The notes under the pieces are model-generated. The model made no database searches. It was not told where the DNA came from and was given only the letters and a program-made list of their open reading frames with translations. 38,596 nt of DNA from Clostridiales bacterium (GTDB lineage: Bacteria > Bacillota_A > Clostridia > Christensenellales > Aristaeellaceae): NCBI GenBank assembly GCA_024684665.1, contig JAIKWN010000016.1, positions 1 to 38,596 of the forward strand, read 5' to 3'. Position 1 is the first letter of the stretch. Each line of letters starts with the position of its first letter. The position numbers and the translations under genes are program-made. Below are positions 3,577-28,131 of the stretch, piece by piece.

Positions 3577-4272
3577 ATGGCAGGGCAGGGAAAGGTGACC
3601 GCCGGCGTCGTGCGGTATATCCGGAAAAACATCGAAGAGGGCGCCTGGCACGTGGGGGAGCGGATACCCAGCGAAAACGAGCTTTGCGCGCTTCTCGGCG
3701 TCAGCCGCGTGTCCGTACGCAGCGCCATCCGGCAGATGGCAGCCCTGGGCGTCGTTGAAAGCATTCATGGAAAGGGAACTTATCTGCGGTCGACAGATCT
3801 CTCTGCCTTTGGCGAGGCGCATACCCGGATGGCGGACGTCCCCGACGACGCGCGGTCGGAGATGCGCCAGATCCTGGAATTTCGGCTGTTTCTGGAACCT
3901 CCGGTCTGCGAAGCTGCGGCGAACCGCATCCCGAAAGAAGATGTGGAACGCCTAGAGGAGCTTCTCGGGAACATGCGGGAGGCCATCGGGGAAAGAGGGG
4001 CGTTTGTCGCCGCCGACATGGCTTTTCACCTCACGATCGCTAAAAGCGTCGGGAATCCGATCCTCGATAAAACGCTGTCCGATCTTCTGGCGCAGAAGAT
4101 GGAAGCGCATGCGCGGCTCAATCGGGCGGTGGGCTACTATGGCGGCATGTACTATCACGCCCTGATCCTGGACGCACTCCGCAGGCATGACGCGAAGCAT
4201 GCCGGAGCCCTCATGGAAGAGCATCTGCGCCACAGCCTGGACGAGATCGCGGAGCCGGTGCAGGCGGTATAA
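3577..4272 (+). CDS. GntR-family transcriptional regulator, FadR/FCD subfamily
   Basis: 231 residues. The N-terminal winged helix-turn-helix (about 5-75) includes GERIPSENELCALLGVSR and IHGKGTYL. The C-terminal half (about 90-215) looks like an all-helical FCD ligand domain with EMRQILEFRLFLEPPV and a late H-x-x-x-L pattern. I chose the ATG at 3577 because AGGAGG (3565-3570) is six bases before it; the in-frame ATG at 3562 has no SD. FCD regulators commonly bind sugar acids or other carboxylates, which fits control of the adjacent hexonate genes, possibly through the 1244-1259 palindrome. The link is inference. Confidence 0.88.
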   Translation: MAGQGKVTAGVVRYIRKNIEEGAWHVGERIPSENELCALLGVSRVSVRSAIRQMAALGVVESIHGKGTYLRSTDLSAFGEAHTRMADVPDDARSEMRQILEFRLFLEPPVCEAAANRIPKEDVERLEELLGNMREAIGERGAFVAADMAFHLTIAKSVGNPILDKTLSDLLAQKMEAHARLNRAVGYYGGMYYHALILDALRRHDAKHAGALMEEHLRHSLDEIAEPVQAV

Positions 4273-4324
4273 CAGGAACAGGCTTTCCTTTGATCGGTAT
4301 TCTTGCGACGGGAAGGGATTCTTC

Positions 4325-5458
4325 ATGAAACAAAACTTTTGGCTAAAACCGGTATGCCTCATCCTGCTGGCGGCTGTCCTTGCGGCAGGCGGTTTTTTCG
4401 CCGGGAAGAACACCGGGAAAAACGAGGCGCAGGCAAGCTTCGAGGCGGCACGCGAGTATGATGTCCTGCTCCACAGGAGCGATCTGGATGGGCTGGGGAA
4501 GATTGATGGCCCTGTTTACGTCACCGGCCACAGGAGCCCGGACAGCGATACTGTCGGCAGTTCCATCGCCTGCGCTGCGCTTCTGACACAGCTGGGGTAT
4601 GACGCGCATGCGGTCGTGCTGGGGAAGATTAACCACGAGACCGCCTATGTTCTGAAAGAAGCCGGCCTGGAAGAGCCTCCGCTCCTCACGGACGCGACAG
4701 GGAAAAACATGATCCTCGTGGATCACAGCGAGTATATGCAGTCTGCAGACGGTCTGCGGGATGCAAATATCATCGGCATCATCGACCACCACGGCGATGG
4801 ATCCGTCACGACCGGAAACCAGCTGATTTACGATGCGCGGCCCTTGGGTTCCACGGCGACGATCCTGTGGATCCGTTACCTGGATTACGGACTTGAGCCG
4901 GATAATAAGACAGCAACGGCTATGCTTGGGTCCATCCTCTCTGATACCAAAAACCTGCAGCCCGGGACTTCGACTTTCGCGGACGCGGAAGCCGTACGGG
5001 TCCTGTCCGGGATCGCCGGGATTACGGACGTGAACGCTTTCTGGCAGAAGATGTTTGAAGAGTCGTTGTCCTACGAGGGGATGAGCGACGAGGAAATCTT
5101 TTTTAGCGATTACAAAGAATACGAAAGCGGCGTAATGAAATACGCAATCGGCTGTGTGGAGGCTTACGACGAGGCGAAGGCCGCGGAACTGGCGGGGCGG
5201 ATGCGCGCGGTCATGCCCGGAACGCTTACACCCGCCGGCATGGATACGGCGTTTGCAATGGTAAGCGTATTCCACGACGGCCTGAGCGTCTCTTACCTCG
5301 TCCCCGCGGATGAGGCAGCTGCAGAGATTATCACGATGGCTTTCGGCGACCGGGCTGTGTTCGACGGGACTTCGTACGTACTGAGTCCCGGTATCTCCCG
5401 AAAGCGGGATATGGTTCCCGCTATTACGGACGTGCTTTCCATGCACCCGGGGGAATAA
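4325..5458 (+). CDS. Membrane-anchored family II (DHH-DHHA2) manganese-dependent inorganic pyrophosphatase
   Basis: 377 residues, about 65 longer than cytosolic PpaC because of an N-terminal hydrophobic segment (about 9-27) and linker. The ligand set of family II enzymes is present: H69, D73 and D75 (GHRSPDSD), D133 (LVDHSE), H155 in the DHH motif 154-156, and D207 (ILSDTKN). The DHHA2 signature SRKRDMVP is near the C-terminus. Cytosolic PpaC hydrolyses PPi. Here the positive N-terminus followed by a single hydrophobic stretch predicts an anchored enzyme with its active site outside the membrane. ATG 4325 is preceded by GGGAAGGG; a longer frame from 4187 would overlap the GntR gene and bury the hydrophobic segment. 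It may be co-transcribed with the regulator, 52 bases upstream. Confidence 0.83.
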   Translation: MKQNFWLKPVCLILLAAVLAAGGFFAGKNTGKNEAQASFEAAREYDVLLHRSDLDGLGKIDGPVYVTGHRSPDSDTVGSSIACAALLTQLGYDAHAVVLGKINHETAYVLKEAGLEEPPLLTDATGKNMILVDHSEYMQSADGLRDANIIGIIDHHGDGSVTTGNQLIYDARPLGSTATILWIRYLDYGLEPDNKTATAMLGSILSDTKNLQPGTSTFADAEAVRVLSGIAGITDVNAFWQKMFEESLSYEGMSDEEIFFSDYKEYESGVMKYAIGCVEAYDEAKAAELAGRMRAVMPGTLTPAGMDTAFAMVSVFHDGLSVSYLVPADEAAAEIITMAFGDRAVFDGTSYVLSPGISRKRDMVPAITDVLSMHPGE

Positions 5459-5530: not shown

Positions 5531-5570
5531 CATAAAAAAAGCGGTTCGCGACCTTTTTCGCGAACCGCTT
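5531..5570 (-). terminator. Strong intrinsic terminator of the VTC/DUF4956/CotH operon
   Basis: Perfect 12-bp stem AAGCGGTTCGCG (5539-5550) / CGCGAACCGCTT (5559-5570) with an 8-base loop. Read on the minus strand it is followed by a run of seven T. On the plus strand it may also slow transcripts from the pyrophosphatase gene. Confidence 0.9.
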
Positions 5571-5591
5571 CTGTGCATCATAAGCAGCTGG

Positions 5592-6299
5592 TTAATACTC
5601 CCTGTTTTCATACCGTCGGCACCAGACGTACTTGCTGACGGCGCTGCGCTGCGCAGTGATGCCGCCCAGAACCGCCTGCAGGTAGGAAGGCAGGAATTCG
5701 TCGTACTTTACTTCCAGGATTTCCACGGGGGTATCGAAGACTGGATAGGTGGGGAGCTCCGCATTGAACATGTCGGAAGAAAAGAGACCGGTGCGCAGTT
5801 GCTTGTCAAAGGTGATGCGTACTTCCTCTGCTTCGTGGATGTAGGCTTCCCGCACATAGTCCACGATGACTGCGGGATGCAGGAGCCGGGTTTTCATCTC
5901 CCGGTAAACCTCCTGAAGCAGGGGATGCTTCATTCTCTGCAGGCCTTCCGGGTCGCAGGCGATCAGCTGCTCGGCCAGATCCCGGGGGATGGAAACGCTC
6001 TGCTTCGAGATGAGGTCGCCCAGCTTGTGCTTGCACTCCAGCTTAATTACCCGGTCGCTGAAGTTGTAGATGCGGATGCGGTACTTTTTGCGCATGCCGA
6101 CGCCAGCGATCTTCTCTTCGAGCGCCTGATCATCGTAGGTATCGAAATACAGCGAGCGGATGAAGTATTCGTTGTTCGTATCTCCGTTGGGATCCGGCCT
6201 GAGCAGCGGCCGCAGGATCCCCCGAAGGACGGTCAGCTCCGCCGGAGTGATGTTGTATTTCAGCTCATGCCGGAGGGGCATGCTGCGGATGGTCGGCAT
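5592..6299 (-). CDS. VTC-domain polyphosphate polymerase
   Basis: 235 residues, essentially one VTC domain. Visible hallmarks are RHELKY at the start, SLYFDT around residue 50, the basic strand RKKYRIRIYN, KLECKHK, and YVREAYI in the second half, all lining the triphosphate tunnel in the family. The VTC core of yeast Vtc4 makes polyphosphate from ATP; bacterial single-domain proteins are usually annotated the same way. ATG 6299 has GAGGGA seven bases upstream, whereas the longer in-frame start (6338) would overlap the DUF4956 gene and lacks a site. It is the last gene before the 5531-5570 terminator and lies 10 bases after the DUF4956 stop. Activity is inferred. Confidence 0.87.
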   Translation of the reverse strand: MPTIRSMPLRHELKYNITPAELTVLRGILRPLLRPDPNGDTNNEYFIRSLYFDTYDDQALEEKIAGVGMRKKYRIRIYNFSDRVIKLECKHKLGDLISKQSVSIPRDLAEQLIACDPEGLQRMKHPLLQEVYREMKTRLLHPAVIVDYVREAYIHEAEEVRITFDKQLRTGLFSSDMFNAELPTYPVFDTPVEILEVKYDEFLPSYLQAVLGGITAQRSAVSKYVWCRRYENREY

Positions 6300-6309
6300 A
6301 GGCGATCCC

Positions 6310-6984
6310 TCAGTTTCCGGCTTCGGACTGGCAGGCAATCAGCGTTGCGCTGTGCACACCTTCGGTTTTCTGCAGGTTGTTCACGATGTCTAGTCGGTTC
6401 GAAAGCTGCAGTTCCACCGTCAGCTCCACACCGCCGGGGGTCACGGCTTTGCTGCGCAAGCGCTGTACCTTGATGCGGCGGATGTGCTCCATTACCTCGT
6501 CCTCCGCCTCCTCCGCGTAGTGCACGACGAGCAGGAAGGTATTGGGCGAGCGCAGGCGGAAGAAGGCGAGAAGAAGCATGACCAGCGAGATGCCGGCAAC
6601 CACCACGAGAGCGATGGAATAGAGCTCCGCTCCCAGGAGGATGCCCATGGTCAGCGACCAGAACATGTAGGCAGTGTCCAGCGGATCCTTGACGGCTGTC
6701 CGAAAACGGACAATGGACAGCGCGCCGACCATGCCCATGGACAGGGCAATGTTGGATTTGATGCACATGACCACCGGCGTAGTGACAAGGCAGAGCATGA
6801 TGAGCGTGGTGGCGAAAGAGGGGGAATAAAGCACGCCGCGGAAGGTTTTGCGGTAAACCAGGGCGATGATGAAGCCTACCAGGAAGCCCATGGCGAGGGC
6901 GAGGATCATCTTCATGGGGGTGAGGCTTGCCATCTGTTGGCCAAACCATTCGGTGACGCTGACGTCGTTGATCATGCTTTTCAT
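6310..6984 (-). CDS. DUF4956 family membrane protein
   Basis: 224 residues. Hydrophobic segments lie at about 25-44, 52-75 and 105-140, with the conserved cytoplasmic block GALSIVRFRTAVKDPLDTAY between them, diagnostic of DUF4956. A soluble C-terminal domain (about 150-220) resembles small ferredoxin-like folds (VELTVELQLSNR, LQKTEGVHSATLI). SD AGGAGG precedes ATG. Its function is not established; genomes repeatedly pair it with VTC polymerases and CotH proteins, as here, so it may be a membrane partner of the polymerase, such as a channel or regulator. That role is inference. Confidence 0.85.
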   Translation of the reverse strand: MKSMINDVSVTEWFGQQMASLTPMKMILALAMGFLVGFIIALVYRKTFRGVLYSPSFATTLIMLCLVTTPVVMCIKSNIALSMGMVGALSIVRFRTAVKDPLDTAYMFWSLTMGILLGAELYSIALVVVAGISLVMLLLAFFRLRSPNTFLLVVHYAEEAEDEVMEHIRRIKVQRLRSKAVTPGGVELTVELQLSNRLDIVNNLQKTEGVHSATLIACQSEAGN

Positions 6985-7016
6985 GGGGCGCTTCCTCCTG
7001 TGATGATAGTTTTCTG

Positions 7017-10000
7017 TTATTCTGCGAGCTTTTCGGGGCAGGGACCGCAGTAGGCGATCATTTCCTCCTCCGAAAGCTTAAAATAGGATTTGATTTCCTG
7101 CCACATATACCACGGTCGGCGGGTAAAGATACGGGTCAGAGTCCGCTCGCAGCGGGTGACCCAGTAGTTGTAGCCGCCCTCTGGATTCTTTGGTTGGTCG
7201 AAGCTGATCTTGGGATGCACTTCGGCGGCCCAGCGCTGCATATGCATCTGCATTTCCGGGCGGATCTCCGCCACCATGCTGTTGAACAGGTTCGACAGGT
7301 ATTCCGTGGTGAAGACGGTCTGGAAGAACTCACCGTAGCGTTTCAGGAACTTGTTCTGCACCTCAGGTACTTTGATGAGGTGACGGATGAGCACGTTGCT
7401 CTTGATCTTCTGTGCGCCCATGCCCTTCTCGTTCAATACGTAGGCGACACCGCCGGAGAGTTTATCACGACCGGTGGTTACGTTGAAGAAGCCCCAGTCG
7501 GAGTCGTAGAAGAGATAGCGCCATTTTCCGTCGCCGGATTTTGCGTTGCGGTAGAATCGGATGTTGCCGGGGTCGGTGTTGCCGAAGAAGGATTCGAAAA
7601 TGAAGTAGTCCAGCATGTTGTCCACGTCCACTTGGGAACAGACGTATTCGTACGCCTCCCGGTCGTTTACAAGGTCGTGGCTTTCCACGTATTCGACCAG
7701 CTTCTTGTACTCCCGGTTTGTGCCCTGATTCACCTGGGACGAGCTTGTGCCACTGGCTTCCAGCATGTCGATGTCGCCGGGGTTCAGCCAGCCTTCGTGT
7801 TGCGCCACCATTTTGACGCCGGCACGCTCCCGCAGGTTGTAATGCCCCCAGTATTCGCCGTTGATGTAGACGATGACAGGACGCCAGGCCTGATGGGCGA
7901 GGGTGGAATCGGTGGCGTCGATAATGCGGGACTGCATACCGTCTATCACCCGGGTGTAGAGCCCGTCTTGGCCGCCGTTGCGCAGGACGAAGGAGGCATA
8001 GCTGGTATAAGGGCGATCGGGGAACATCGCGTAGTTGAACCGGTCCACGCCGTACTGGCCGTCCGCCTTTACGTAGAGGCTCTTCTGGGGCATATCCAGG
8101 GAGAACTGCCCCATGACGCGGAAGGTCATGCCCTGGCTGAACTGCTGCACGCGGTTTTCATCGTAGTATTCGACCCAGCCGCCAAACCAGTTCTTCTGCC
8201 AGTAGGTGGCGTTTTTCCAGGGGGTCTTCTGCGCTTCCCGGTCGAGATTCGGTCCGTCGGCGAACATGCCGTTCTGCTCGTTCCAGAGGTGATCCGGATC
8301 CGTCGAGATGCATACGACAGGCATGGTATGGTAGACGGAAACGAGATACGTCTGGGAGACCACCTGGGAGGGCTCTACGCCGTCCCGCCAGGTGCGGGCT
8401 CGCACGACGGTGTTGGTATAGATCTCAATGGGTTCTTCGTAGAGAGGGGAGGCGAGCGTGGGATCCGTCCCGTCCAGGGTATAGCGGACGGTGCTGTTCG
8501 CTGGGACCTCCAACCGGACCCCCTCTTTGCCTTCAAGCGGGCGTTCGTACAGGCCGCCGGGGACGAGGAAGGCGGGAGTGTCCGCAAAACCGGTGAAGCC
8601 CTGTCCGTTCGCATAGCCGGGTGTGGGAACGCTGTAATAGAAAAGACCGGCCTGTCCCAGGGTGCGTCCATAGGAGTGGTCGTCATACAGCTGGGGAACG
8701 ACGATCTTGTCGAGGATATTCCCCGCAGGATCGGCGAGGCAGACGGTTTCGCCGGATTGTTTCAGGTTGAAAGTGGTAAACGTATAGGCGCCTTTTTTCG
8801 AGGTCTGCGTCTTATCGCAGTAGATGACGCTGTATCCTCCGTCTTCGATCGTGAGGTCGGGGAAGCGCCATTTCCGCGGTTTCTTCAAGTTGTCCGACAG
8901 GCCGTAACCTTTAAGGTTTACGGCCTGCCCGCTCATGTTGTAGATCTCGATATAGTCGTAGAAATAGTTTACGCCGGGGCCGTGGGTCTTCGTGTTTCCA
9001 GTCATGACCTCCGTGATGTACAGCCCGCTCGTATTGGCGAGGCAGAGCCGCGTGTCCATTGCGATCTCGCTCTCGTGGGTGTTGGACATGCCGGGGGTCG
9101 GCTGGGTGAAGAGCTTCCAGGCTTCTTCATTGTTGGTCTCATCCCGCCCCCAGGATTCGTCCGCGCCCAGGAGATCGTAGGTGACGAGATCCACCATGCG
9201 CCCTTGGATGTCCGAGAGGATTACTGTCTCCCCGTTGCTGCGGAGGCGGAAACTGGCGTGCGGCCAGCTCCCTTCCGCTGCTACCCGGTCCTTTCCGGAG
9301 GCGAAGACCACGTAGTAGCCACCGGCCTCCAGGGTCGTTCCCTGGGGGAAGCGCCATTTGAGGGGAGATTCCGGGTTGTCGCTGAGGGCATAATTGGAAA
9401 GGTCGATGGGGATGCCGCTTCGGTTATGGATCTCGATCCAGTCAGGGTAAAGTCCGTCCTCATCCCGGAGGGTGGTGAGGGAGCTGGCGCAGACCTCATT
9501 CAGGACGAGGCTGCCCATCGTCAGCCGGGTGGAAGCGCGGTATTCCGCGTATCCCTCCTGTGTGTTTCCATAACCGGGTGTGTATTGCCCTGTGATGATG
9601 TAGCTTTCGCCACCGATCCAGGCGTAGCTCATGTCCCGCTCTACAGCGGGGATGGAGAGCTTCTGATATGCGACGCCGTCGGTGCCGAAGAGATACAGTG
9701 TGTCGCCAGCGGAAGAGATCTTGAAGTTTGCGTGAAATGCCTTTCCCGCTTCGTTTTTCGTTTCGTCGGAGGCGAAGACGATGATTCGGTCTCCCGCAGG
9801 CAGCGTCATCTCCGGGAAGACGAACAGGATTTTGTCATCCCTGTCGGACAGGCCGTAGCCGCCGATGGGAAGCGGGACAGTGGAAGTGTTCGTCAGCTCG
9901 ATCCAGTCGGGGAAGGCGCCGTTCTCGTCCGGATACGCGGAACGATTCGAGGCCATGACCTCAGTGATTCGGAAGGCGCGGTTTCCGGTGGAACTGTCCG

Positions 10001-10199
10001 CGTCTTTCCCGCCTTCTTCCTGGATCAGGGGTGTAACGGCGGGAGTCTGCCGGACGGGAGGCGCCAGGAAAACCAGTACCACGAGAAACGCGAGGCAGAC
10101 GAGCAGCAGAAGCAGCGTATTCTTTTTCGGCCTTTCACGCACTAGACGCCGCTTTTTCTTCCGTACGGGCGTCGCCTTGCGCATGCGTCTGTTTTGCAT
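7017..10199 (-). CDS. Membrane-anchored protein with three lamin-tail domains, a chitobiase-C-like domain and a CotH kinase domain
   Basis: 1060 residues. A very basic N-terminus (RKKKRRLVRERPKK) precedes one transmembrane segment (about 29-48), predicting an outside-facing ectodomain. Three lamin-tail repeats follow (about 75-210, 225-370, 385-525), each with EVM/EVC, DWIEL/DYIEI, GLSD/ALSD and a FP-x(n)-G block. A chitobiase/hexosaminidase C-like module (TLDGTDP) sits near 570-625. The C-terminal 400 residues are CotH: INGEYWGHYNLRER, DMLEA, DYFIFESFFGNTD and FYDSDWGF, where the D/E residues match the atypical kinase metal and ATP sites. CotH of Bacillus phosphorylates spore coat proteins. 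Here a surface protein kinase or adhesion platform is plausible. AGGAGT precedes ATG. Confidence 0.87.
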   Translation of the reverse strand: MQNRRMRKATPVRKKKRRLVRERPKKNTLLLLLVCLAFLVVLVFLAPPVRQTPAVTPLIQEEGGKDADSSTGNRAFRITEVMASNRSAYPDENGAFPDWIELTNTSTVPLPIGGYGLSDRDDKILFVFPEMTLPAGDRIIVFASDETKNEAGKAFHANFKISSAGDTLYLFGTDGVAYQKLSIPAVERDMSYAWIGGESYIITGQYTPGYGNTQEGYAEYRASTRLTMGSLVLNEVCASSLTTLRDEDGLYPDWIEIHNRSGIPIDLSNYALSDNPESPLKWRFPQGTTLEAGGYYVVFASGKDRVAAEGSWPHASFRLRSNGETVILSDIQGRMVDLVTYDLLGADESWGRDETNNEEAWKLFTQPTPGMSNTHESEIAMDTRLCLANTSGLYITEVMTGNTKTHGPGVNYFYDYIEIYNMSGQAVNLKGYGLSDNLKKPRKWRFPDLTIEDGGYSVIYCDKTQTSKKGAYTFTTFNLKQSGETVCLADPAGNILDKIVVPQLYDDHSYGRTLGQAGLFYYSVPTPGYANGQGFTGFADTPAFLVPGGLYERPLEGKEGVRLEVPANSTVRYTLDGTDPTLASPLYEEPIEIYTNTVVRARTWRDGVEPSQVVSQTYLVSVYHTMPVVCISTDPDHLWNEQNGMFADGPNLDREAQKTPWKNATYWQKNWFGGWVEYYDENRVQQFSQGMTFRVMGQFSLDMPQKSLYVKADGQYGVDRFNYAMFPDRPYTSYASFVLRNGGQDGLYTRVIDGMQSRIIDATDSTLAHQAWRPVIVYINGEYWGHYNLRERAGVKMVAQHEGWLNPGDIDMLEASGTSSSQVNQGTNREYKKLVEYVESHDLVNDREAYEYVCSQVDVDNMLDYFIFESFFGNTDPGNIRFYRNAKSGDGKWRYLFYDSDWGFFNVTTGRDKLSGGVAYVLNEKGMGAQKIKSNVLIRHLIKVPEVQNKFLKRYGEFFQTVFTTEYLSNLFNSMVAEIRPEMQMHMQRWAAEVHPKISFDQPKNPEGGYNYWVTRCERTLTRIFTRRPWYMWQEIKSYFKLSEEEMIAYCGPCPEKLAE

Positions 10200-10261
10200 G
10201 GGTGACTCCTGAATAAGATGGTGATGGGATGGGCGCGGCGCTGCGGCCGCTTCCCCCCGCG

Positions 10262-10290
10262 CAGGGGATTATAGCACAGATTCTTTCATT
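10262..10290 (-). promoter_or_regulatory. Possible extended -10 promoter for the CotH-DUF4956-VTC operon
   Basis: On the minus strand TGC-TATAAT occurs (TATAAT at 10268-10273), an extended -10 with a poor -35. It lies in the 86-base gap between the caspase-like and CotH genes and would allow separate expression of the latter. Confidence 0.5.
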
Positions 10291-11446
10291 GGGAAAGATG
10301 AAAGTGCGAAGAAACCGAAACGCGCGGCGTTTCTGCGTTATCAGGCGGAACAGGCTCTCCACCGGCGTCCGCGGGATCCAAGATTGAGACTGTGAAAAGG
10401 CGGGAGGCGCAGAGGGAAAAGCGCCCGTCTTCGAGCGCATACACCTGCAGCGCGAAGACATCCCCCGGTTTTGCACCCCGGAGGCGCAGGGAATGGGAAA
10501 GGCGGCCGGTTTGTGCCTGCTGGGGCGCGAGAAAGGTTGCGGCCTGCCAGTCCCATTCCCCGTCCCGGCGCTCCACGAACCTGTACTGTATGGAAACGCT
10601 TCGGCGCACGGTACAGGAGAGGAAGACCGTCGGGTCGTCCGGGGAAAGGAGACGGGAGCCGAAAGAAAAATCGGTCAGCGCCCGCTCCGACAGCGGGACC
10701 GGTACGGTCGGAAGCGCGAACATGGGATCTGCCCCGCGGGACAGCTGCGGTGTGGAAACGACGCAGGCTTCCGAAAGAAACGAAAACAATTCGGAGAGGC
10801 GGACGGTTCCGTCTCCGTCCGTATCCGCTTCCGCCCCTCCGTGAAGCCCAAGTCCTTCGCAAAGCGTGTTCACGAAATAGGAAAGCGTGCCGGAGGTGAG
10901 CGCTTCACCGGCGGAATACCAGGAGCGCTCCCCGGCGGAGCAGGAGGTCAGGACGGCGATTTCCGGGTTTGCTTTGAAGGGACTTCCTTCACTTTCCAGA
11001 AAGGCTCCGCTGAAGCAGGCGTCCAGGATGACCAGTTTTTTCCCGGGCAGGGAAGAGAGCAGGCGGGAAAGTGCCTGCGGGGTCAGTATGCTTTCCTCCT
11101 CTCCGTCCGAGAGTAGGAGATAAGGATCGGGGAACCCGTGAGTGCAGAGGTAGAGCAGTGAAATGTCCGCGCCCGCAGCGCCTGAGAAATGTTCATGCGC
11201 GGCCTCTGCGAGGGCAACCGGGGAGGAGACGGTTCCGTCTTCCAGACGAAGCCGGGCTCCGTCTACGCCAGCAAGGGTCAGGCAGGCTGCGAGGGTCTGC
11301 AGATTGGCGGATGAATCATAGCCGAGAGAGGGAGCGGTGAGAAATGACCGACAGGCCACGAGAAGGGCGCGTACCTCCCCACGCACCGGGGCGGGCGCAG
11401 CCAGGAAGAAGGATAACGCGAAAAGGAGCGCTGAGAGACGCCGCAT
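10286..11446 (-). CDS. Secreted caspase-like (peptidase C14 / metacaspase) protein with embedded EF-hand motif
   Basis: 386 residues. A signal peptide spans about 1-23 (hydrophobic run, then APAPVRG-EV). The caspase-hemoglobinase fold follows, with the catalytic histidine H103 in LLYLCTHGF and cysteine C144 in LVILDACFSGAF, and VLTSCSAGERS downstream as in bacterial C14 proteins. An EF-hand-like loop, DTDGDGTVRLSEL (208-220), lies inside the domain, suggesting calcium dependence. The last 120 residues look like a beta-rich domain (SVSIQYRFVERRDGEW, GDVFALQVYALEDG). GGAGGGG precedes ATG. It is transcribed toward the CotH gene 86 bases away. Metacaspases usually cleave after K or R and are cytosolic; an exported one is less common. 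Targets are unknown. Confidence 0.85.
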   Translation of the reverse strand: MRRLSALLFALSFFLAAPAPVRGEVRALLVACRSFLTAPSLGYDSSANLQTLAACLTLAGVDGARLRLEDGTVSSPVALAEAAHEHFSGAAGADISLLYLCTHGFPDPYLLLSDGEEESILTPQALSRLLSSLPGKKLVILDACFSGAFLESEGSPFKANPEIAVLTSCSAGERSWYSAGEALTSGTLSYFVNTLCEGLGLHGGAEADTDGDGTVRLSELFSFLSEACVVSTPQLSRGADPMFALPTVPVPLSERALTDFSFGSRLLSPDDPTVFLSCTVRRSVSIQYRFVERRDGEWDWQAATFLAPQQAQTGRLSHSLRLRGAKPGDVFALQVYALEDGRFSLCASRLFTVSILDPADAGGEPVPPDNAETPRVSVSSHFHLSQ

Positions 11447-11515: not shown

Positions 11516-11542
11516 GAAGAAAGCCGACGGAGATCCGTCGGC
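11516..11542 (-). terminator. Intrinsic terminator of the TetR gene
   Basis: GCCGACGG (11523-11530) and CCGTCGGC (11535-11542) form a perfect 8-bp stem with a 4-base loop. On the minus strand it is followed by the T-rich TTTCTTCTT. Confidence 0.75.
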
Positions 11543-23218: not shown

Positions 23219-23866
23219 TCAGAATCGCAGGAACTTCTGAACGTCTTTGTCGCTCCCGAGCAGAACGATGCGGTCGTCCGGCCTGAATTCATAAGAGGGA
23301 CCGGGCATCGGCTCCACGACGTCGTTATGCCGGATGGCAAGGATGTTCAGACGGTACCGCTGGCGTACTCCCAAATCAACCACGGTGTGGCCGATCCAGC
23401 TGTCCGGGATCTCCGTTTCATAAATGGCGTGGTCCGGCGACAGGCGGATATAATCATAAATATGGTCGCCAGTGTACCGGACGGCAGCCCAGTCTGCCAT
23501 CTGTCTTTCCGGATAAATGACCTCGTCTGCGCCGCAGGACAGGAGGAACTGGGCATGCGCGTCTCGGGAAACGCGGACCAGAACGAACGGCGCGCCCTTC
23601 TTCTTCAGCAGCGCCGTGATCTCCAGAGAAGCCTGCAGGTCATGGCTCATGGTCACCACGCACAGATCAAAATCCGAAACGCCCAGCGCGTCGATCAGGG
23701 CGGGGTCGGTCGCGTCCCCGATCTCCGCGCTGGTTGCGTATTGCATGGCTTCCTGAACTTTGTGCTCGTTTTTGTCGATGACCAGCACCTGATGATGAAG
23801 ATCGGAGAGTTTCTGGGCCATATGACGCCCGAAGCGTCCCAGGCCGATCAGCAGGACGTTTTTCAT
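23219..23866 (-). CDS. KtrA/TrkA-type potassium channel gating subunit
   Basis: 215 residues, the length of a single RCK unit. RCK_N Rossmann start VLLIGLGRFGRHMA with acid loop VIDKNEHKV, then GDATDPALIDALGV; RCK_C about 135-215 ends DDRIVLLGSDKDVQKFL. These proteins form an octameric ring that gates KtrB/TrkH and bind nucleotides (and in KtrA/KtrC relatives, c-di-AMP through RCK_C). GGGAGG lies six bases before ATG. It is divergent from kdpD-kdpE-ktrB, whose last gene encodes the matching channel. Symbol withheld because Ktr and Trk naming is ambiguous. Confidence 0.92.
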   Translation of the reverse strand: MKNVLLIGLGRFGRHMAQKLSDLHHQVLVIDKNEHKVQEAMQYATSAEIGDATDPALIDALGVSDFDLCVVTMSHDLQASLEITALLKKKGAPFVLVRVSRDAHAQFLLSCGADEVIYPERQMADWAAVRYTGDHIYDYIRLSPDHAIYETEIPDSWIGHTVVDLGVRQRYRLNILAIRHNDVVEPMPGPSYEFRPDDRIVLLGSDKDVQKFLRF

Positions 23867-23889
23867 AACAGCCTCCCGGATGATCAGAA

Positions 23890-23967
23890 TTAAGCGTGTT
23901 CAGTTTATCATGCCTCCCGTCAATGCGGCGTTAAGCATTTTTCCCGGGCGTTAAAGCTGTGTTAAGC
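23890..23967. promoter_or_regulatory. TTAAGC direct repeats in the potassium divergent region
   Basis: TTAAGC occurs at 23890, 23931 and 23962, and TTAAAGC at 23951; the last three share a G(C/T)GTTAA core with 20- and 11-base spacing. Tandem same-strand repeats fit an OmpR/KdpE-type response-regulator site. Assignment is inference. Confidence 0.45.
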
Positions 23968-24024
23968 CATGAGGCCGTATCTTTATGTTTTTTTAATGCC
24001 GGCAGGGAACCTTTGTTTTTCTCT

Positions 24025-24045
24025 TTATGCGGAATGCGTTATAAT
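24025..24045 (+). promoter_or_regulatory. Promoter of the kdpDE-ktrB operon, weak -35
   Basis: Perfect TATAAT at 24040-24045 without a recognisable -35, suggesting activator dependence. The TTAAGC repeats lie some 75-150 bases upstream. Confidence 0.55.
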
Positions 24046-24081
24046 ACAGGCTGAGAAGGACCGGAAAGGAAGGTGAAGCAT

Positions 24082-26052
24082 ATGCCGGGGCAGGGTATGG
24101 AAAGGGAGCGCATCCTGGTATGCGTTTCTGCCTCGCCGACCAGCCGGGACGTGATCCGCAGGGCGGCACGGCTCTCCGGTTCCATCGGCGCAGACCTGAT
24201 CGCGCTGTATGTGGAAGATCCGGAGATCCGGGATGACGCGCAGGAAGAAGCGGTCCACGAGCATCTGAGCCTGGCTGAACGCCAGGGCGCGGTCATTACG
24301 ACCATCTACGGAAATGATCCGGCGACGGCCATTGCGCAATACGCCCGCGTCAGCGGGATCACGAAGATCGTACTGGGGAAGAGCCCGGGCAGCCGCAGCC
24401 TCTTTGCACGAAAGGAAACGCTGATGTCGCGGCTGAACGAGCTGGCGCCCGACGTTGAAATCATCATTGTTCCCAATCGCCTTCCCGAGGACCGCCGGCG
24501 GTTCAGCCTGATGGGGCAACTGCAGAAGGAAAAGCTCGCTCCCGACGATCTTATAAAGACCATCCTGATCCTCGCTTTATGCACCGGCATCGGCTTCCTG
24601 CTTTCGCTCGGCGGCCTGGCCATTACCAACGTGGTGCTGATCTATATCCTTGGGGTGCTTGCGGTCGCCCTGTTCACGACGGGGTATACCTGCAGCCTGC
24701 TGTCCTCGCTGCTGTCGGTGCTGACTTTTAACTTCTTTTTCACGGAGCCGTATTATTCCCTGCAGTCCAGTCCCGATTATCTCGCGACCTTCGCCGTGAT
24801 GTTTGCCGCGGCGATCCTCTCCAGCTCGCTTACAAGCCGTATCAAGACGCAGTCGGTCCAGACGGCGAACAAGGCCTATCAGACGGAAGTGCTGCTCTCC
24901 ACGAGCCAGCTGCTTCTGAAGGCGGAGGACAGGGAAGAAATCCTGAACGTCGTCCTGCAGCAATTGAGCCGTCTCCTGGAACACAGCGTGCTGTATTACG
25001 ACTGGGACGGCGTTCCCACCGGGGAACCGGTCCTCAACGAGATCGAAAGCGATCAGGGGTTCGGCCAGGTGGATCTTGCGGCGGAGCGGGAGGCTGTAGA
25101 ATGGGTGGGCCGCAACGGGAAACACGCGGGCCGCTCCACGCGTAAATGGTCCCAGGCAAAGTGCTTGTATATGGCGATCCGCAGCGAAAACCGGGTCTGG
25201 GCGGTGGTCGGGATTCGCGCGGACAACGCGCCGTCTATCGACGAATACCGGAAGAACCTGATGATTTCGATCCTCGACGAATGTGCGCTGGCGATCGAAA
25301 AGGACCATATCACGCGGGAGAACCAGCGGATCGAGGAAAGCGCTCGGCAGGAAGCACTGCGCGCGAACCTGCTGCGGGCGATCTCCCACGATCTGCGTAC
25401 GCCGCTGACCAGCATCTCCGGGAACGCCGCGGTTCTTCTTGAAAACATGGGGGACCTTGATGAGACGCGTAAAGAGGAACTGTACGCTTCGATCTACGAC
25501 GACGCCATATGGCTGAATGGACTGGTCGAAAACCTTCTGACCATCACACGCACCGAAAACGGGGCCGTTACGCTGAGCCTCCAGCCTGAAATGGTCTCGG
25601 ACGCGATCGAGGAAGCGGTCCGGCATCTGGACCGGAACGCCGCGAAGCGGAAGATCGTGACGGACCTGCTGGACGATCTCCTGATGGCCCGGATGGATTC
25701 TGCGCTGATCGTGCAGGTGCTGATCAACCTGATCAACAACGCCGTCATGTATACCCCGGAAAACGCTGAGATCCGGATCGGTGCAAAAGCAGAAGACGGC
25801 ATGGCAGTGCTGTGGGTGGAGGACGAGGGGCAGGGTGTCCCCGCAGGAGAGGAAGACAAGGTGTTTGAAATGTTCTATACGGGCGTCAAACGCTCCCCGG
25901 ACAGCCGGAGGGGCATCGGGCTCGGGCTGGCGCTCTGCCGCTCCATCGTGCAGGCTCACGGCGGAGAGATCGGAGTGAAGAACGTTCGCCCGCATGGCGC
26001 GAGATTCTGGTTTACTCTTCCGATCGCGGAGGTGGAAGAATATGGGGAATAA
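24082..26052 (+). CDS. KdpD-type sensor histidine kinase lacking the N-terminal KdpD domain
   Basis: 656 residues against about 890 for E. coli KdpD. It begins directly with the universal-stress-protein domain (about 8-132, ILVCVSASPTSRD); the preceding Walker-A-containing KdpD domain is absent. Four DUF4118 transmembrane helices (about 155-260) follow, then a GAF-like region, HisKA with the phospho-acceptor H436 (AISHDLRTPLTS), and HATPase with NLINNAVMYTP, DEGQGVP and GIGLGLALC. ATG 24082 follows GGAAAGGAAGG. It overlaps kdpE by 11 bases. It probably senses potassium or turgor and phosphorylates the next gene product. Confidence 0.92.
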   Translation: MPGQGMERERILVCVSASPTSRDVIRRAARLSGSIGADLIALYVEDPEIRDDAQEEAVHEHLSLAERQGAVITTIYGNDPATAIAQYARVSGITKIVLGKSPGSRSLFARKETLMSRLNELAPDVEIIIVPNRLPEDRRRFSLMGQLQKEKLAPDDLIKTILILALCTGIGFLLSLGGLAITNVVLIYILGVLAVALFTTGYTCSLLSSLLSVLTFNFFFTEPYYSLQSSPDYLATFAVMFAAAILSSSLTSRIKTQSVQTANKAYQTEVLLSTSQLLLKAEDREEILNVVLQQLSRLLEHSVLYYDWDGVPTGEPVLNEIESDQGFGQVDLAAEREAVEWVGRNGKHAGRSTRKWSQAKCLYMAIRSENRVWAVVGIRADNAPSIDEYRKNLMISILDECALAIEKDHITRENQRIEESARQEALRANLLRAISHDLRTPLTSISGNAAVLLENMGDLDETRKEELYASIYDDAIWLNGLVENLLTITRTENGAVTLSLQPEMVSDAIEEAVRHLDRNAAKRKIVTDLLDDLLMARMDSALIVQVLINLINNAVMYTPENAEIRIGAKAEDGMAVLWVEDEGQGVPAGEEDKVFEMFYTGVKRSPDSRRGIGLGLALCRSIVQAHGGEIGVKNVRPHGARFWFTLPIAEVEEYGE

Positions 26053-26767
26053 ATCGCTGATCCTTGTGGTGGAAGACGACGCGGCGGTGCGCAACCTGAT
26101 GGCTGTGACGCTGGAGACCCGGGGTTATCGCTATCACCTGGCCGGGAACGGGACGGAGGCGCTGATCGAGACGACGACGCATCAGCCGGACGTGATGCTC
26201 CTGGATCTGGGACTGCCGGACATGGACGGCGTGGAGATCATCCGCAAGGTACGGGGCTGGTCCAATATGCCCATCATCGTGATCTCCGCCCGCAGCGAGG
26301 ACGCCGACAAGGTGGAGGCGCTGGACGCAGGCGCGGACGATTATTTGACCAAACCGTTTTCCGTGGATGAAATGCTTGCCCGCCTCCGCGTGGCGCTTCG
26401 GCGGATCAGCACGGACCAGCAGCCGGCTGCCCGCGAAAGCGCCGTCTATGAAAACGGAAACCTGCACATCGACTATGCGGCGGGCTGCGCATATATCGGA
26501 GACCGCGAGATCCATCTGACCCCCATCGAGTATAAGCTCCTCAGCCTGCTGGCGAAAAATACCGGAAAGGTGCTGACCCATAACTATATCTTGAAGGAGA
26601 TCTGGGGCAGCTATTCCGCCTCGGAGGTCGGCTCCCTGCGGGTGTTCATGGCTATGCTCCGCAAAAAGCTGCAGACCGGCGGGGATGCCCAGCCCTATAT
26701 TCAGACCCATATCGGCATCGGATACCGTATGCTCCGGCAGGAGAAGAATCCGGAGGAAACGGTATGA
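26042..26767 (+). CDS. KdpE-type OmpR-family response regulator
   Basis: 241 residues. Receiver domain 1-120 with acidic pair VEDDA, phospho-acceptor D55 (VMLLDLGLPDMDG), T/S in VISAR, and K in YLTKPF; winged helix 140-235 (HLTPIEYKLLSLLAKNTGKVLTH and IQTHIGIGYRML, with SYSASEVGSLRVFM as in KdpE). ATG 26042 lies inside the end of the kinase gene, after GGAGG. Overlap by 4 bases with ktrB (ATGA) shows coupled translation. It presumably activates its own operon. Confidence 0.93.
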   Translation: MGNKSLILVVEDDAAVRNLMAVTLETRGYRYHLAGNGTEALIETTTHQPDVMLLDLGLPDMDGVEIIRKVRGWSNMPIIVISARSEDADKVEALDAGADDYLTKPFSVDEMLARLRVALRRISTDQQPAARESAVYENGNLHIDYAAGCAYIGDREIHLTPIEYKLLSLLAKNTGKVLTHNYILKEIWGSYSASEVGSLRVFMAMLRKKLQTGGDAQPYIQTHIGIGYRMLRQEKNPEETV

Positions 26768-28131
26768 TCTTCCCAGGAAAAGAAAAAGGACAGGCTGGCT
26801 TCCGGCATGCCGAGAGCATCCTGGCACTCGGTTTCCTCGCGGTGATCCTTCTTGGCACCGTTTTGCTGGCACTGCCCGCGGCCGCCGGGGACGGGAAGAG
26901 CATCGGCCTGTTTGACAGCCTGTTCACGTCGACGTCTGCCGTATGCGTGACCGGCCTCGTCGCGGTCGATACGGGGACGGCGTTCTCGCTGTTCGGGCAG
27001 ATCGTCCTGCTGGCGCTGATCCAGGTGGGCGGGCTTGGTTTCATGGTGTTTGCCACAGTGCTCCTCGTCATGCTCGGCCGAAAGATCTCCATCAAGGGGC
27101 GGATGCTGATCCGGGAATCCATGAATTCGGCCTCTCTGTCGGATCTTGGAAGCCTGACGAGGCTGTATTTGCTGCTGTCCCTGGCCATTGAGCTCGCCGG
27201 AACGATCCTGCTGTCTTACCGTTTTGTTCCGCTGTATGGATGGAAGCGCGGCCTCTGGATGGCGCTGTTCCATGCCGTAAGCGCTTTCTGCAACGCCGGT
27301 TTCGATCTGTTCGGCGGATACGCAAGCCTGACCGCCTTTGCCGGAGATCCGTTGGTGCTGCTGACCGTCGCGGGGCTGATCATTTCGGGAGGACTGGGTT
27401 TTTCCGTGATCCTGGAAACGATCCGGAACCGCCAGGGTTTCCGCAGCCTGTCCCTGCACACGCGGATCGTGCTCCTGACCACATTTGCGCTACTCGTCGC
27501 GGGCACATCGTTTTACTGGCTTGCCGAACGGACGAACGCGGGTACACTTGCCGGTTACGGGGAAGGGGAGAGGCTGCTGAACGCGTTTTTTCAGTCCGTC
27601 ACCATGCGGACGGCCGGCTTCAATTCCTTTGATCTCTCCCGTTTCCGGGACGGCTCTAAGCTCTTCAGCTGCTTTCTAATGAGCGTCGGTGCTTCTCCCG
27701 CCTCTACGGGCGGCGGGATCAAGACCACGACCGCGGCCGCACTTGCGCTGCTGATGCTGAGCGTCGTCCGGGGCGAAAGTGAAGTGAACGTCGCAAAGCG
27801 CAGGCTGCCGGAGGAGATCACCCGGCGGGCGCTGGCCGTGGCCGTGCTGTTTCTGATCACCCTGCTTGCAGGCACGCTGATCATTTCCCTGATTGAAGAC
27901 GGTCGTTTTCCGTTGGCGGATATTCTTTTCGAAGCCTCGAGCGCCATGGGAACGGTCGGCGTGTCGGCGATCGGGACGCCGAATCTTTCTCCTGAGGGCC
28001 GGGCCGTCCTGCTGCCGATGATGTTCCTGGGGCGCGTCGGGCCGCTGACCCTGGCTGTCGCGCTCGCAAAAAGGCAGGGCAGGATGCGATCCGTACTGAA
28101 GTATCCGGAAGAAAAAATCATGATCGGATAA
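26764..28131 (+). CDS. KtrB/TrkH-family potassium uptake channel subunit
   Basis: 455 residues, KtrB-like length with eight or more hydrophobic segments. The four filter loops carry the family glycines: SAVCVTGLVAVDTG, AFCNAGFDLFGG, MRTAGFNSFDL and TVGVSAIGTP; the cytoplasmic gate loop is ASPASTGGGIKTTT. It imports K+, probably coupled to Na+, and pairs with the gate encoded at 23219. Start overlaps the kdpE stop. No terminator is visible after it. Confidence 0.93.
   Translation: MIFPGKEKGQAGFRHAESILALGFLAVILLGTVLLALPAAAGDGKSIGLFDSLFTSTSAVCVTGLVAVDTGTAFSLFGQIVLLALIQVGGLGFMVFATVLLVMLGRKISIKGRMLIRESMNSASLSDLGSLTRLYLLLSLAIELAGTILLSYRFVPLYGWKRGLWMALFHAVSAFCNAGFDLFGGYASLTAFAGDPLVLLTVAGLIISGGLGFSVILETIRNRQGFRSLSLHTRIVLLTTFALLVAGTSFYWLAERTNAGTLAGYGEGERLLNAFFQSVTMRTAGFNSFDLSRFRDGSKLFSCFLMSVGASPASTGGGIKTTTAAALALLMLSVVRGESEVNVAKRRLPEEITRRALAVAVLFLITLLAGTLIISLIEDGRFPLADILFEASSAMGTVGVSAIGTPNLSPEGRAVLLPMMFLGRVGPLTLAVALAKRQGRMRSVLKYPEEKIMIG

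Follow-up and report, generated by a model that had tools for sequence, protein, structure and literature searches.

Genes for a CotH protein, a poly-phosphate polymerase, a DUF4956 protein and a DUF4832 protein have been described beside pelDEADAFG, and the first three are contiguous with that cluster in streptococci, clostridia and bifidobacteria (PMC7112168, in the excerpts available). In Streptococcus intermedius, deletions of SIR_1592 and SIR_1594, which are DUF4956-like and CotH-like, respectively, change Pel level or aggregation, and the available excerpts of the same 2025 paper report that its authors failed to find synteny of the trio outside Pel loci (PMC12345266). VTC and CotH genes are also listed in a C. 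perfringens locus (PMC2879425, in excerpt). Here we analyze positions 1 to 38,596 of contig JAIKWN010000016.1 (Clostridiales bacterium, forward strand), hereafter the window, in which genes for a VTC-type polyphosphate polymerase (VTC), a DUF4956 membrane protein (DUF4956) and a CotH-family kinase (CotH), together the trio, lie next to a gene for a predicted secreted caspase-like protein (caspase). Our comparisons suggest that the trio is most likely a stand-alone variant of the known gene set, situated beside a separately expressed secreted protease. An earlier sequence-only reading of the window had joined all four genes and called their functions rarely discussed together; for the trio this wording does not hold, as both Pel-locus papers already describe it (PMC7112168 & PMC12345266, as excerpted). 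By title or abstract, the literature on CotH–lamin-tail proteins, CotH–polyphosphate polymerase pairs and secreted CotH kinases contained no publication on this unit. The features discussed below are as follows.

5592..6299, minus strand: VTC-type (triphosphate tunnel) polyphosphate polymerase, 235 amino acids (aa), predicted soluble (PF09359, E 1.8e-35)
6310..6984, minus strand: DUF4956 membrane protein, several predicted transmembrane helices followed by an ACT-like domain (PF16316, 1.6e-12)
7017..10199, minus strand: kinase of the CotH family, with a single membrane segment near the N-terminus, three lamin-tail domains and Fn3_assoc (CotH, 3.3e-40)
10286..11446, minus strand: caspase-like protein (clan CD), predicted secreted; a neighbor, probably outside the operon (PF00656, 2.3e-5)
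5533..5572 (approximate), minus strand: intrinsic terminator 3' of VTC with a 15-bp stem, 6-nt loop and T run
10268..10295, minus strand: extended -10 promoter-like site of CotH, TTCCCA / 16 nt / TGCTATAAT
11523..11542, minus strand: terminator-like site between a TetR gene and the caspase gene, 8-bp stem with 7 G-C pairs and a T-rich tail; consensus match only

Gene coordinates confirm that the four genes share one strand, with intergenic gaps of 10, 32 and 86 bp from VTC to caspase, and Pfam matches bear out the domain assignments of the sequence-only reading (VTC, DUF4956, CotH with three lamin-tail domains, and caspase-like). VTC has an alternative, longer TTG start at 6338 that overlaps DUF4956. 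The promoter-like site of CotH comprises a -35 at 10295-10290, which overlaps the caspase stop codon in the window, and a -10 at 10273-10268. This extended -10, to which the sequence-only reading had drawn attention, is present in the window and recurs in relatives: among loci in which 120 bp or more precede CotH, a TG-extended -10 site lies 5' of this gene in 31/42, compared to 1.1 expected from dinucleotide shuffles. The same site was found before DUF4956 in 1/45, VTC in 0/44, caspase in 3/40 and a patatin-like gene described below in 1/20; that is, it recurs before CotH only. We give an even chance to the reading that CotH, DUF4956 and VTC form an operon of three genes, transcribed from a promoter of its own, which would work as a polyphosphate-linked cell-surface kinase module. 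The strong terminator that had been proposed downstream of VTC was likewise confirmed in the window (fold of -25.1 kcal/mol, z -6.34, with no shuffle equally good); a simple scan did not list it, and it was picked up by a second scan. A comparable terminator lies 3' of VTC in 11/44 loci, compared to 0.1 expected.

The trio is conserved well beyond the window. DUF4956 matches (E up to 0.001) were found in 74/200 genomes of the order and 238/250 of the family. VTC adjoins DUF4956 in all 30 of the best order-level loci (L026-L055), 24 of which carry CotH inside the 1.5-kb flank, and 28 more loci at the family level (L056-L083) gave CotH in 28/28 and VTC in 26/28. The co-occurrence of the three families in other genomes, as stated in the sequence-only reading, is borne out. 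Two gene orders were observed, CotH-DUF4956-VTC and, in more distant genomes, CotH-VTC-DUF4956 (L041, L043, L044, L149-L153 and others among L039-L055). The flanks differ between lineages: no neighboring gene of the trio is common to every lineage sampled (21 loci), and the trio persists as a unit while its flanks change. The sequence-only reading had suggested a check of gene order for all four genes: the trio stays together, in one of these two orders, and caspase lies beside it only in part of the close relatives. Median pairwise identity across 20 linked loci was 39% for caspase, 70% for CotH, 82% for VTC and 87% for DUF4956, and 49% for the patatin-like protein (16 loci). Ratios of nonsynonymous to synonymous substitution rates (dN/dS) in five close pairs were 0.16-0.34 for caspase, 0.19-0.41 for the patatin-like protein, 0.08-0.31 for CotH, 0.04-0.19 for VTC and 0-0.09 for DUF4956. 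All five look to be under purifying selection, with caspase the most divergent.

Like the Pel accessory set (PMC7112168; SIR_1592-1594 of S. intermedius, PMC12345266; both as excerpted), the window trio comprises the same three families, contiguous and on one strand, with an exported CotH. For SIR_1592, the membrane part is described as MgtC-type and an ACT domain is noted (PMC12345266); equating it with DUF4956, a name not used in the excerpts of that paper, is our own step. In contrast to the published set, the trio is not contiguous with pelDEADAFG among the window proteins scanned, no Pel family being matched among 17 of them with Pfam. The order here is CotH-DUF4956-VTC, the window CotH carries a membrane segment as well as three lamin-tail domains, and the trio has a recurrent promoter-like site of its own. 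PelG exceeded its cut-off in 8/150 family genomes and matched weakly in two others, and genome G002, which carries the trio (L002), had no PelG match. The occurrence of the trio without Pel in the window and in G002 contradicts the excerpted statement that synteny is absent outside Pel loci (PMC12345266).

Single window proteins searched against the PDB with phmmer gave no Vtc4, CotH or caspase match, and profiles were needed. A profile from 16 VTC proteins matched yeast Vtc4 (3g3q) at 1.5e-15; 10/10 of its PDB matches were Vtc4/2/3 chains, with no other PDB family, and 15 charged positions are identical in 16/16 aligned proteins. By our own matching, VTC appears to keep most Vtc4-type residues, and it would make polyphosphate from ATP in the cytoplasm. 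Hydropathy indicated no membrane segment in VTC. The yeast VTC complex (Vtc4, 3g3q, 7ytj, 8i6v) resembles the present locus in having a polymerase domain of the tunnel type, in which the charged residues match, and here too a membrane protein is encoded beside the polymerase; the two differ in that PF09359 is the sole Pfam match of VTC here, with no SPX, and in that the membrane partner resembles MgtC. Fusion of VTC to DUF4956 was considered as proof of contact and rejected: in nine of ten long-open-frame regions the two occupy separate frames, and the remaining one (L159) holds DUF4956 only. The trio was also rejected as a replacement for PPK1, which is present in 80/120 genomes.

DUF4956 exceeds the PF16316 cut-off and shows a transmembrane part followed by an ACT-like domain. 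In its structure model (predicted local distance difference test, pLDDT, 73; predicted template modeling score, pTM, 0.52), the ACT-like half has the MgtC C-terminal domain (2lqj) as its best PDB fold match (E 2.6e-3), and the MgtC Pfam model stayed below its cut-off on the protein (17.8 vs 31.4 bits). R93, R95, K99 and D103 are present in 62/62 proteins. Judging from this model, DUF4956 resembles MgtC and carries an ACT-type domain, and it would couple polyphosphate synthesis to the membrane. Kinship with the membrane part of the yeast VTC complex was rejected, there being no such match among the 50 fold matches listed. Four DUF4956 proteins (P0107 and P0140-P0142) have a second annotated domain (PF01757; PF07907) and are possibly fusions.

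The window CotH contains lamin-tail domains (LTD, 4.8e-50) in three stretches, Fn3_assoc (9e-15) and the CotH kinase domain (3.3e-40), and hydropathy analysis placed its one membrane segment at 28-46; from this topology we infer that the kinase domain lies outside the membrane. A profile from 9 CotH proteins matched B. cereus CotH (5jd9) at 4.2e-22, and the catalytic residues are retained, D858, D876 and D899 being invariant in 9/9 profile proteins. Anchored outside, CotH would phosphorylate a surface acceptor. It shares its kinase domain and conserved aspartates with the Bacillus spore-coat kinase (5jd9), but differs in its membrane segment and lamin-tail domains and in the sigma-70-type promoter-like site in front of it, and DUF4956 matches occur here in Spo0A-negative draft genomes as well. 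Spo0A was found in 66/120 genomes, and a DUF4956 match in 20/20 of the Spo0A-negative draft genomes listed (of 54 negative). A spore-coat role of the trio was rejected because only these 66 genomes carry Spo0A.

Caspase has one N-terminal hydrophobic segment by hydropathy. It exceeds the PF00656 cut-off (24.6 vs 21.4 bits); NCBIfam caspase_w_EACC1 matched at 1.1e-11, but with 44.6 bits against a cut-off of 140 and thus below it. Its AlphaFold2 (AF2) model (pLDDT 84) matched MALT1, legumain and caspases in Foldseek, so that both the fold and the His-Cys pair (His103/Cys144) of the family are present. His103, Asp142, Cys144, Glu173, Asp208 and Glu219 are kept in 24/24 aligned homologues including that of the window, and among the caspase proteins of the loci the His is found in 40/40 readable ones (two are cut by contig ends) and the Cys in 42/42. 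With clan CD proteases (caspase, legumain, MALT1, metacaspase and the EACC1-associated NCBIfam type) it shares the fold, the His-Cys pair and an Asp two residues before the Cys, which we take to suggest Arg/Lys at P1, as in MALT1 and metacaspases. It differs from them in its export segment and in an EF-hand-like loop (208-219) C-terminal to the catalytic Cys, from the EACC1-associated type in its score, and its relatives often carry a C-terminal FlgD-like domain. The caspase profile matches calcium-binding EF-hands and FlgD, and a precomputed FlgD-like Ig domain (PF13860) is present in 10/23 other listed homologues. The window protein, at 386 aa compared to 450-581 aa in all 23 others, is missing the C-terminal region present in its relatives, and its branch in the caspase tree is long. 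Its 90% cluster has four member sequences from five contigs, the lengths of the members lying outside this comparison, which argues against an assembly fault behind the short protein. A defense system was considered and rejected, with no PADLOC match among five proteins scanned, and we found no literature on secreted bacterial caspases of Clostridia.

Whether caspase belongs with the trio was assessed from its neighborhood. Scanning contigs with the caspase alignment gave 25 loci, of which 24 are from Clostridia, Clostridiales or Candidatus Ventricola metagenome-assembled genomes, many of them from animal guts, and one from Sedimentisphaerales; 40 wider regions around the loci were taken for comparison. 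Caspase and CotH are neighbors in 23 loci, including the window. The two are set apart by an opposite-strand patatin-like gene in 19/23, among them L003, whose contig ends within CotH, and nothing lies between them in the other four (window, L018, L114 and L115). Among the family rows listed, the distance between caspase and DUF4956 is at most 15 kb in 9/17 genomes with DUF4956 identity of at least 80%, in 3/5 at 69-79% and in 0/128 below that band (99 with caspase on another contig, 29 with no listed caspase), counts that come from draft genomes in which contig breaks hide some linkage and that use listed rows only, 34 genomes reading as no listed caspase. The wider regions added caspase–trio links in G411, G323 and G245 (L114, L115 and L119). 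The genes are apart in G250 and G444, no CotH match was found within 6 kb after caspase in L017 (G017), and 16 trio loci from more distant genomes (L138-L153) gave no caspase match; G404 and G434 also gave none, but their contigs end at CotH. In the caspase tree, the 23 neighboring copies and six others stand opposite 34 unlinked copies across a supported branch, with the caveat that L007, L010 and L011 are labeled unlinked on contigs that end at or near caspase or the patatin-like gene.

Using thresholds of our own (E < 1e-70 for caspase, E < 1e-66 for trio-type DUF4956) on 250 draft genomes of the family, both genes were found in 156 and neither in 65, trio-type DUF4956 without caspase in 15 and caspase without trio-type DUF4956 in 14. 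As a phylogenetic profile linking caspase and the trio this was rejected, despite a raw Fisher p of 2.6e-31, since in a RecA tree 30/36 'neither' genomes fall in one clade (G334, G309 and G418 lying outside it), which makes the co-occurrence mostly one event. That tree is of one gene with many weak forks; 90 loci were given and 87 yielded RecA, sampling 38/156 genomes with both, 36/65 with neither, and 9/15 and 4/14 with one, and the 'neither' rows G296, G363 and G420 cover only 10-12% of columns. Taken together, promoter, gene-order and linkage data support the caution, already voiced in the sequence-only reading, that caspase may be a mere neighbor. We infer that caspase is not in the same transcription unit across relatives; its placement beside the trio is probably a feature of one clade, and it would be a separately transcribed, secreted and possibly calcium-binding protease next to the operon. 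A neighbor relation over-read as a system is an ordinary part of this observation.

The patatin-like protein (L001-L006, L008, L009, L011-L016, L019, L020, L119, L121-L123 and L133) is encoded opposite the caspase strand, e.g. at L019:11420-12262 on the minus strand. Pfam Patatin exceeded its cut-off in 2/3 of the proteins scanned, and a Ser occupies the GxSxG nucleophile place in 0/21. Lacking this Ser yet under the constraint given above, it is likely a conserved pseudoenzyme. The surroundings of caspase in unlinked loci L127-L129, L131 and L132 are partly the same and, judged by eye, include genes for a solute-binding protein, a peptidoglycan-type peptidase and a glycosyltransferase. Elsewhere in the window, 23219-28131 holds a potassium uptake set, in which TrkA and TrkH (by Pfam) flank what by eye are a KdpD-like sensor kinase and a response regulator, and 4187-5458 on the plus strand encodes a Family II Mn-dependent pyrophosphatase-like protein (DHH, DHHA2), convergent with the operon and perhaps exported to judge by eye from an N-terminal hydrophobic stretch.

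Several observations weigh against an operon that acts as a polyphosphate-linked kinase module. The promoter-like site is lacking before CotH in 11/42 loci and the terminator 3' of VTC in 33/44; the terminator scan found none between caspase and CotH in the window, so read-through is possible; and the dN/dS range of CotH overlaps that of caspase. Polyphosphate may come from elsewhere given the frequency of PPK1 (80/120 genomes), the membrane half of DUF4956, in a model of moderate quality, matched no channel among the 50 fold matches listed, and the excerpts give no phenotype for deletion of the polymerase gene SIR_1593 (PMC12345266), which speaks against strict coupling. VTC could also be a tripolyphosphatase or other triphosphate hydrolase, with the trio removing polyphosphate, which we consider unlikely. 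Four positions that are basic in Vtc4p are glutamates in hydrolase-type tunnel enzymes, and Vtc4p Lys-458 is named as catalytic (PMC4641920, in excerpt). Position 12 of VTC is such a hydrolase-type glutamate (E12) in 16/16 proteins, while by our own matching the remaining three carry basic residues, like Vtc4p (R10, K99 and K198), and the profile matches Vtc chains only. A Lys corresponding to Lys-458 was found in 16/16; this match is our own and depends on a block whose alignment reaches only 2 bits. The convergent pyrophosphatase would suit polyphosphate removal, but it had no match in 64 other loci.

The four-gene system with a proteolytic partner that the sequence-only reading proposed, in which the exported caspase would process or release the CotH kinase or its substrate under co-regulation with the polyphosphate genes, appears improbable to us. 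The shared strand, the 86-bp gap with no terminator found in it, adjacency of caspase and CotH in 23 loci and the family-wide co-occurrence (both in 156 genomes and neither in 65, as opposed to 15 and 14 with one alone) all favor it. They are outweighed by the promoter-like site of CotH itself, the opposite-strand gene in 19/23, the absence of linkage further out (0/128), the differing identity levels (39% for caspase as opposed to 70-87% for the trio), the 29 genomes carrying one gene alone, the single-clade origin of most of the co-occurrence, and the separated genes of G444, G250 and L017 (G017). More credible, though still on the doubtful side, is that the trio serves exopolysaccharide synthesis as a regulatory appendix, in line with the proposal made for Pel loci, CotH phosphorylating polysaccharide machinery that DUF4956 and VTC tune. 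Contiguity with pelDEADAFG in three bacterial groups (PMC7112168) and the effect of two trio genes on Pel amount (PMC12345266), both from excerpts, speak for it, and the target may still be an unlinked polysaccharide; the scarcity of PelG in the family, the lack of Pel among the 17 window proteins scanned and the lack of a gene recurring beside the trio speak against it.

The locus bears on the source of the phosphoryl donor for a kinase outside the bacterial membrane and on the role of bacterial VTC proteins. Extracytoplasmic phosphorylation might conceivably be driven by exported polyphosphate, a long shot in our estimation: VTC at the inner face would make polyphosphate, DUF4956, in which R93, R95 and K99 are invariant, would conduct or hand it across, and surface CotH would use it as a phosphoryl donor where ATP is scarce, or fix it onto surface proteins. 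If true, this would explain the tight, one-promoter linkage of CotH–DUF4956–VTC in Spo0A-positive and -negative genomes, and its occurrence beyond Pel loci. Whatever the donor, the trio stands without Pel here, and in the family DUF4956 matches occur in 238/250 genomes as opposed to PelG in 8/150. The valuable part of the locus is what would be an operon that stands alone, uniting a VTC polymerase with an MgtC-like membrane protein and a surface kinase and conserved together with its promoter.

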